From positions 1 to 35,628 of the forward strand of contig CANKBX010000007.1 of assembly GCA_947480055.1 (NCBI GenBank): 35,628 nt of DNA, read 5' to 3'. This document shows, one piece after another, positions 31,313 through 32,566 of this stretch. The translations under genes and the position numbers were made by a program. How positions within the stretch are numbered: position 1 is the stretch's first letter; each line of letters begins with the position of its first letter. The notes below the pieces were generated by a model. It had not been told where the DNA came from. It searched no databases and was given only the letters and a program-made list of their open reading frames with translations. The stretch comes from Planctomycetaceae bacterium. Lineage in GTDB: Bacteria > Planctomycetota > Phycisphaerae > Phycisphaerales > SM1A02.

Positions 31313-31552
31313 TTATTGCTGAGCTTCGCCACCCGAAGCGGGACGAATTTTGCCGACGATTGGGTTGCCATCTTTTTCAGTGGCATTGATCTGGTTCGCA
31401 ACCTCACGGCGGTGAACCATCACTTCGCGGGGAAAGTCAAATGCGATCTTGACTCGGTCCCCTTTGATGGACGAGATACGGACAATTCCCAGCGGGGCCG
31501 CGGGATCACCAATCACAACTTCTTCACCTTCTCTACGGGTAATCACCAACAT
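31313..31552 (-). CDS. csrA: CsrA-family translational regulator
   Basis: MLVITRREGEEVVIGD...IRISSIKGDRVKIAFDFPREVMVHRREVANQI. AGAGGT-like SD upstream of ATG at 31552. Confidence 0.93.
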   Translation of the reverse strand: MLVITRREGEEVVIGDPAAPLGIVRISSIKGDRVKIAFDFPREVMVHRREVANQINATEKDGNPIVGKIRPASGGEAQQ

Positions 31553-31682
31553 TGCTTTAGACCTCTTTGTCAAAGACCATCTCGCCGCGGTGCTCCAAGC
31601 CTCCACGAATCCATGCGATCAAGTCTGCCGTTTGAAATATCCGAGAGGTCAGTCTACCTAAATCCACGCAATTTCAACCCGT

Positions 31683-31721
31683 AAATAAAACGCCCCCGCA
31701 CCGGTTCACGGTACGGGGGCG
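31683..31721 (-). terminator. Intrinsic terminator (minus strand) between mraZ and csrA
   Basis: Minus strand CGCCCCCG-U-ACCG-UGAAC-CGGU-G-CGGGGGCG followed by UUUUAUUU. Confidence 0.85.
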
Positions 31722-31963
31722 ACGACGGATAGAACCCCAAAAAACAGGGTTCCAGAGTCCTAACCGCCATCCTTGGCGGATCAAACCCTTCTCAACGAGC
31801 CGTCCATGGCTCGTTTGTTCTGTTCGAATGGTTCCCACTTCGCCGTCCTTGGCGCAGTGAGGTTGCCATTCGTTGCTCTCCCGCGTTGGGCCGTCCTTGG
31901 CATCAACGCAAGTCTTGAATCAAACCGCCGCGCACTGCGACGGATTAAAAGTTTTTCCAAAGA
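31683..31963 (-). ncRNA. Candidate CsrA-sequestering RNA (CsrB/RsmZ-like), promoter and 5' end undefined
   Basis: Minus-strand hairpins at 31883-31909 (loop AAGGAC), 31836-31859 (AAGGAC), 31794-31815 (AUGGAC, 8-bp perfect stem) and 31764-31779 (AAGGAU), additional GGA motifs, one further hairpin (31732-31752), then the terminator. Lies between the mraZ stop and csrA. Confidence 0.7.
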
Positions 31964-32428
31964 TCAACTCGAAGTTCTGTTTCGAATTGCCTCGCGAGCA
32001 CGTCGCCAAATATCCGCGGCGGCGGGCTCAAGTAATTCACGTTCTTCCTTCCACTTGTCCGTGGTGCACAACTCCAAATGATCTCGAACACCAAGAATCA
32101 TCACGTTTCCCGCCAATCCGTAGCGTGACAACATTCGGTCTGGAATGCGCACGCGCCCCGCTTTGTCCAGTGGACAACGCGAAGATTGACTGAAGATCAA
32201 TCGCTCGAAATTCTGAACGCCCTCGTCGCCCAACAACGAACCGCCGAGAGCGTTGGAGAGATCCGCGAATGTTTTTTCCGGCCACAGCCAAAGAAATCCG
32301 TTGGGTCCGGGCGCTGAAACAAACACTGCGTCGTTGCCATCGTTGGGCAAACAACTGCGAATTTCCGATGGAACAGCGAGTCGCTGTTTCGCATCGAGAG
32401 AATGTTCGAATTCGCCTAGGAAGAGCAT
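31964..32428 (-). CDS. mraZ: Transcriptional regulator MraZ
   Basis: MLFLGEFEHSLDAKQRLAVPSEIR...CPLDKAGRVRIPDRMLSRYGLAGNVMILGVRDHLELCTTDKW. Confidence 0.95.
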   Translation of the reverse strand: MLFLGEFEHSLDAKQRLAVPSEIRSCLPNDGNDAVFVSAPGPNGFLWLWPEKTFADLSNALGGSLLGDEGVQNFERLIFSQSSRCPLDKAGRVRIPDRMLSRYGLAGNVMILGVRDHLELCTTDKWKEERELLEPAAADIWRRAREAIRNRTSS

Positions 32429-32455: not shown

Positions 32456-32485
32456 TTTCCCCACTTTGCAACACTTTGCCCCACT
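32456..32485 (-). promoter_or_regulatory. Candidate MraZ operator: three 10-bp direct repeats
   Basis: Minus strand AGTGGGGCAA-AGTGTTGCAA-AGTGGGGAAA, 28 bp upstream of the mraZ start; matches the TGGGN-N5-TGGGN layout. Confidence 0.75.
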
Positions 32486-32566
32486 TCTTATCAAATTTCT
32501 TGAAATTTTTAGTCTTAGAACAAAATTAAACCCCACCAAATTACGTCCGATATATACATAAATACT

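Follow-up and report, generated by a model that had tools for sequence, protein, structure and literature searches.

The window studied here is a stretch of 35,628 nucleotides from a Planctomycetaceae bacterium (assembly GCA_947480055.1, contig CANKBX010000007.1) of the class Phycisphaerae. On its minus strand it encodes, one after the other, the cell-division regulator MraZ and a CsrA protein, here called CsrA1, which sequence matches in Pfam and PDB clearly identify as CsrA (Table 1). The segment between the two genes, bounded by the mraZ stop (31964-31966) and the csrA start (31552), is non-coding because spacer lengths differ by non-multiples of three among close relatives. A preliminary description of this DNA had pointed out four hairpins with GGA in their loops in the spacer, followed by a strong intrinsic terminator, and had read them as a CsrA-sequestering RNA encoded directly upstream of csrA.

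Table 1. Positions of genes and RNA features around the mraZ-csrA spacer in the window.
Feature	Position	Strand	Description
Probable MraZ operator	32458..32487	-	Three period-10 repeats, AAGTGGGGC AAAGTGTTGC AAAGTGGGGA, just upstream of mraZ
mraZ	31964..32428	-	154 aa + stop; Pfam PF02381, 2.7e-13; conserved upstream partner of the RNA
Hairpin H0	31925..31943	-	CCGUCGC/GCGGCGG; without GGA in the window; in MFE fold
Hairpin H1	31883..31909	-	Loop AAGGAC; fold and relatives' alignment
Hairpin H2	31836..31859	-	Loop AAGGAC; fold and relatives' alignment
Hairpin H3	31794..31815	-	Loop AUGGAC; fold and relatives' alignment
Hairpin H4	31764..31779	-	Loop AAGGAU; fold and relatives' alignment
Hairpin H5	31731..31755	-	CUGGAACCC..GGGGUUCU, GGA at base; conserved, covarying stem
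Intrinsic terminator	31684..31721	-	13-bp stem (31721-31691) and U tract; conserved at the array end
csrA1	31313..31552	-	79 aa; Pfam PF02599, 1e-14; presumed ligand; next gene, not conserved neighbour

Hairpins, terminator, and probable operator around the spacer

All four GGA hairpins, H1-H4, were recovered at the same positions and form in the unconstrained MFE fold of the segment (-131.4 kcal/mol, with z = -6.1 relative to dinucleotide shuffles, a value to which the terminator contributes part). The same fold contains the strong terminator at the segment end as well as H0 and H5, two hairpins absent from the preliminary description. The inner stem of H1 comprises only 3 bp and is followed by an internal loop, while H4 folds as CCGCCA[AGGA]UGGCGG, such that a further A-U pair can close its hexaloop. 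The loop of H0 contains GGA in six relatives of the same genus (G001, G004, G007, G008, G012, and G014). A strict scan, which requires ANGGA within a hexa- or heptaloop on a stem of at least 4 contiguous base pairs, a threshold that H1 misses, detects three hairpins in the spacer of the window versus ca. 0.05 expected.

When the whole window was searched with Rfam at the gathering score, there was no match except for a tRNA elsewhere, i.e., none to the CsrB, CsrC, or RsmX/Y/Z models. The sole relevant match at a relaxed threshold was to TwoAYGGAY (RF01731) with 22.6 bits and an E value of 0.43, compared to a gathering score of 43. As a separate observation, an invariant stretch before the terminator, AUCCGUCG (ca. 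31724-31734), may pair over a long range with CGAAUGG between H1 and H2 (31866-31875). The genus alignment described below contains no covariation evidence for this pairing, and CGAAUGG pairs locally with CCAUUCG in the single-sequence fold, so that alternative structures are possible.

Upstream of mraZ, the three AAAGTGKGGC-like repeats are conserved in the family: repeat scores of at least 11 of 15 were found in 62 of 65 mraZ upstream regions compared to 10 of 370 random windows. Known MraZ operators are made of TGGG repeats in E. coli and of AAAGTG repeats in Mollicutes, and the repeats found here, which resemble them, are probably the MraZ operator in Planctomycetota. No sigma-70-like promoter was found in the array region. 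The simplest reading would be that the RNA is the 3' UTR of an autoregulated mraZ transcript or a product processed from it; an origin from the mraZ 3' UTR had already been offered as an alternative in the preliminary description and fits best.

Fixed loops, covarying stems, and the loop word

In an alignment of thirteen genus-level copies of the array, the GGA of each H1-H4 loop is invariant while the stems vary. Across eight helices, 96.5% of the cells are paired and both sides have changed in 23 of 60 pairs; the observed covariation score was not reached by any of 500 shuffles, and the paired cells fall to 35-49% in slid controls. RNAalifold called 26 double-changed pairs among its own 73. 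The combination of conserved loops and differing stems that had been noted within the single sequence extends to its relatives, where the stem changes are compensatory. Between the two subclades of the genus, no conservation is seen from the mraZ stop up to the first hairpin. A search with a two-hairpin pattern, limited to CCANGGANGG-type hairpins and blind to arrays built on other stems, even those behind mraZ in other genera, found no second array elsewhere in the genomes; nearly all matches within the genus lie at the mraZ locus, and the same pattern read backwards as a control gave few matches.

For the family of the window, we compiled 74 mraZ-csrA spacers from GTDB genomes, in 36 of which csrA is in tandem with mraZ and in 38 of which it is convergent. 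By the strict scan, these spacers contain 214 ANGGA-loop hairpins on the mraZ strand but a single one on the opposite strand, with ca. 0.05 per spacer expected from dinucleotide shuffling, and their hairpin density (5.85 per kb) far exceeds that of the flanking DNA (0.11 per kb). Individual relatives carry between one and eight of these hairpins, the first loop lies 24-259 nt past the mraZ stop, and both the number and the position of the hairpins vary among relatives. A terminator-like structure on the array strand is present in 34/36 tandem and 29/38 convergent spacers. Chance hairpins in a GC-rich spacer that happens to end in an ordinary terminator, a view supported by nothing beyond the low hairpin count of a single genome, have a negligible probability and are refuted by the family and class counts, the loop word, the strand bias, and the covariation.

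The loop word itself is well defined. Among hexaloop hairpins with at least 5 bp in the family spacers, ANGGAN occupies 144 of 328 loops in sense orientation and none of 273 in antisense. In these 144 loops, position 2 is free (A54 C38 T35 G17), while position 6 is a pyrimidine in 131 and G in only three. By its sequence, an A-N-GGA-Y loop with a free second base is the recognition word of CsrA/RsmE, and ANGGA in hairpin loops is the known CsrA target (PMC7366521). Some loops (AAGGA) do resemble part of a Shine-Dalgarno sequence, as would be expected if the GGA loops were shown to a partner other than CsrA, e.g., to ribosomes as a Shine-Dalgarno decoy or to another RNA-binding protein. However, the freedom at position 2 and the rarity of G at position 6 are unlike AGGAGG and reject the decoy. 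With the loop word being a known CsrA target and the hairpins missing from a family without csrA (see below), any such non-CsrA partner appears highly improbable.

Linkage to mraZ across the class

mraZ and csrA adjoin in nearly all members of the window's family. In the 38 members with convergent csrA, the array still stands behind mraZ and the RNA therefore lies on the strand opposite csrA. csrA is not next to mraZ in other families of the order, where the array is found behind mraZ with varied genes downstream, e.g., with eight hairpins at locus L210 and four at L221, though several sister-family genomes have only one or no hairpin at this place by the strict scan. The csrA regions of the sister families contain no comparable array, with one weak cluster at L190. 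At L160, mraZ sits behind csrA, and the hairpins come after mraZ. The physical link to csrA, which the preliminary description had treated as a key trait, is hence secondary.

These arrangements also bear on the idea that array and terminator form a csrA 5' leader or attenuator through which CsrA would feed back on its own transcription. The array does lie upstream of csrA in tandem in the window's lineage, and 27 of 36 csrA leaders of the tandem lineage have a GCANGGA motif of their own. As a general function, this leader is rejected by synteny, i.e., by the convergent csrA of 38/74 family members and by other array-bearing families in which csrA is located elsewhere; in addition, a strong terminator separates array and csrA. 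We thus attribute very little probability to it. The GCANGGA motif of these leaders (31581-31620 in the window; L106-L185) occurs in 3 of 37 convergent ones, and the csrA Shine-Dalgarno sequence often lies within a GGGC[AGGAG]GUCC mini-hairpin. Motif and mini-hairpin together point to a possible autoregulation of csrA.

In other orders of the class, the gene next after mraZ is usually rsmH (Pfam, HMM), and the hairpins lie within the mraZ-rsmH spacer: 107 of them were found in 26 kb of such spacers from 75 csrA-bearing genomes, with one antisense hairpin in the whole set. Over the 500 nt after mraZ, other Planctomycetota classes have 0.26 hairpins per kb, which is near background. Linkage to mraZ is class-wide in the Phycisphaerae, and linkage to csrA is a local trait of one family. 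The sponge reading of the preliminary description is strongly supported by these comparisons because the loops are fixed, the stems covary, and the array is strand-specific, family-wide, and class-wide, while the position upstream of csrA did not hold up as an essential feature.

Unlike in most other orders, rsmH was not found directly behind mraZ in the order Phycisphaerales (L206-L225, families f2-f6), and the genes behind the array differ there between genera. Family f8 (L243-L251) has single UCAUC[ANGGAN]GAUGA-type hairpins toward the far end of the mraZ spacer, perhaps where the next gene begins, which could be a translational CsrA site. Genome G020 (locus L071) shows a single in-frame TGA within its mraZ match and another within its csrA match; these may be stops in the protein tails, sequencing errors, or signs of decay.

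A class-wide linkage to mraZ, the conserved feature, would also be expected of an element acting in cis on the mraZ mRNA. CsrA bound to the hairpins at the mraZ 3' end or between mraZ and rsmH would then control stability, processing, or downstream translation of this mRNA with no titration of the CsrA pool. The situation outside the order, where the array lies inside the mraZ-rsmH spacer and mostly lacks a terminator, is in line with this alternative; since most of these spacers have no terminator, no discrete small RNA need exist there. However, the highest hairpin density occurs in the family of the window, in which the array is followed not by rsmH but by csrA, in one orientation or the other, and unrelated genes follow it in sister families. 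Moreover, up to eight sites exceed the need of cis control, and neither number nor position of the hairpins is conserved. We consider control exclusively in cis rather unlikely, though it is the main rival of titration. Titration and cis control may also both hold, by analogy to the flaA mRNA of Campylobacter jejuni.

Probable titration of CsrA and known counterparts

We favor as the probable function of the array RNA that it titrates CsrA, and we regard it as either the 3' UTR of the mraZ transcript, which MraZ would control, or a derivative of that UTR. The RNA probably mops up CsrA because its hairpins display the CsrA binding word. In detail, the segment would encode a conserved multi-hairpin RNA on the mraZ strand that presents A-N-GGA-Y in each hexaloop or heptaloop, would be transcribed from the mraZ promoter as 3' UTR of the mraZ mRNA or be processed from it, and would bind several CsrA dimers per molecule, thereby titrating CsrA in the manner of CsrB or RsmZ. 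That the hairpins vary in number and place while their loop word stays fixed fits a dosage of binding sites. Given the MraZ-type repeats at the mraZ promoter, the activity of CsrA would be linked to MraZ, a regulator of cell division that controls its own expression. Within the window's family, csrA1 has come to lie next to the proposed sponge, either in tandem or convergent. In a broader version, to which we assign an even chance, the coupling of cell division with carbon and motility control would be ancestral and span the class: the mraZ (dcw) transcript of Phycisphaerae would itself carry the sponge, so that MraZ autoregulation sets free CsrA; the mraZ-sponge-terminator unit would have split from the dcw cluster in Phycisphaerales and later come to lie next to csrA in one family.

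Several short hairpins with unpaired ANGGA and an intrinsic terminator are also the hallmarks of CsrB and CsrC in Enterobacteriaceae and of RsmX, RsmY, and RsmZ in Pseudomonas. The titration mechanism of these Csr/Rsm sRNAs, reviewed in PMC7366521 and PMC7652899, would by likeness be expected of the array, which differs from them in belonging to another phylum, having no Rfam match, and being linked to, and probably co-transcribed with, mraZ. TwoAYGGAY RNA (RF01731), a predicted CsrA-binding RNA of Clostridia (PMC4333381), consists of two adjacent hairpins with AYGGAY loops and is the best partial match of the array, on the right strand; H3 and H4 mimic its two loops but not its closing stem, and the arrays described here have up to eight units. 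The flaA mRNA of C. jejuni is both a target and a titrator of CsrA (PMC4894983). Like the proposed array, it is an mRNA-borne CsrA antagonist in a FliW-containing bacterium, but there a translated CsrA target titrates through its 5' leader, whereas the array is non-coding and located behind mraZ. The nearest mraZ-linked sRNA that we found is UpsM of Rhodobacter sphaeroides, an Hfq-bound sRNA from the mraZ 5' UTR for which CsrA is unmentioned in PMC5089854. It shares with the array that a terminator ties it to mraZ/dcw transcription, but it lies in the 5' UTR of mraZ and not behind the gene.

CsrA is a widespread global regulator, but as of 2014 CsrA-sponge sRNAs had been identified only in Gammaproteobacteria, with two unvalidated candidates predicted in Firmicutes (PMC4333381), and a review from 2020 describes Csr RNAs in Gammaproteobacteria and the protein FliW in some other bacteria (PMC7652899). 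A search of the open-access literature on CsrA with Planctomycetes or mraZ-linked RNAs returned no report of such an array. The array looks like a Csr sponge that falls outside all sequence families tested and whose link to mraZ appears new in the literature searched. If this reading is true, conservation over a whole class would for the first time support a CsrA-sponge family from outside Gammaproteobacteria. A conserved sponge on mraZ in Planctomycetota would extend the Csr-RNA paradigm to a further phylum, might explain why a long stretch behind mraZ is non-coding, and would suggest a connection of division control with CsrA that can be tested.

As for the presumed ligand, csrA was found in 145 of 150 genomes of the class. 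The R44-equivalent residue that the preliminary description had pointed out in CsrA1 of the window is indeed kept, as are R6 and R7, and all three of these RNA-binding residues are invariant in 19 relatives. In family f16, all six genomes lack csrA, and none of them has an ANGGA hairpin behind mraZ. Taken together, hairpins behind mraZ are present in 0/7 csrA-less compared to 48/75 csrA-bearing genomes (Fisher p = 0.0014, though the genomes are related). We treat this contrast as supportive only because of this relatedness, because the loss amounts to one event, and because the csrA-bearing families f18, f20, and f23 also have no array. Genome G173 was dropped as a csrA-less control since its csrA-bearing congeners G096 and G177 are without hairpins as well. 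We also dropped the idea that the csrA1 paralogue determines how many hairpins a genome of the order has, since family f5, which lacks csrA1, is not clearly poorer in hairpins than others.

Many genomes also encode FliW, another CsrA antagonist, which is a point against the sponge reading, and most relatives have a second, canonical csrA, which is close to fliW where coordinates were compared. FliW and the array occur together in most relatives, so that a cooperation of protein and RNA antagonists becomes testable. The family members G016, G020, and G032 have neither fliW nor the second csrA, yet they keep csrA1 and the array, a pattern that suggests that CsrA1, and not the flagellar pair of CsrA and FliW, may be the protein served by the RNA. 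Two relatives have unusual csrA1 genes but an intact array: that of L038 (G009), which counts against the favored reading, encodes VNRREV for VHRREV, an H-to-N change, and has lost the usual stop, resulting in a 475-aa open frame; in csrA1 of L032 (G013), a TGA falls within the C-terminal tail.
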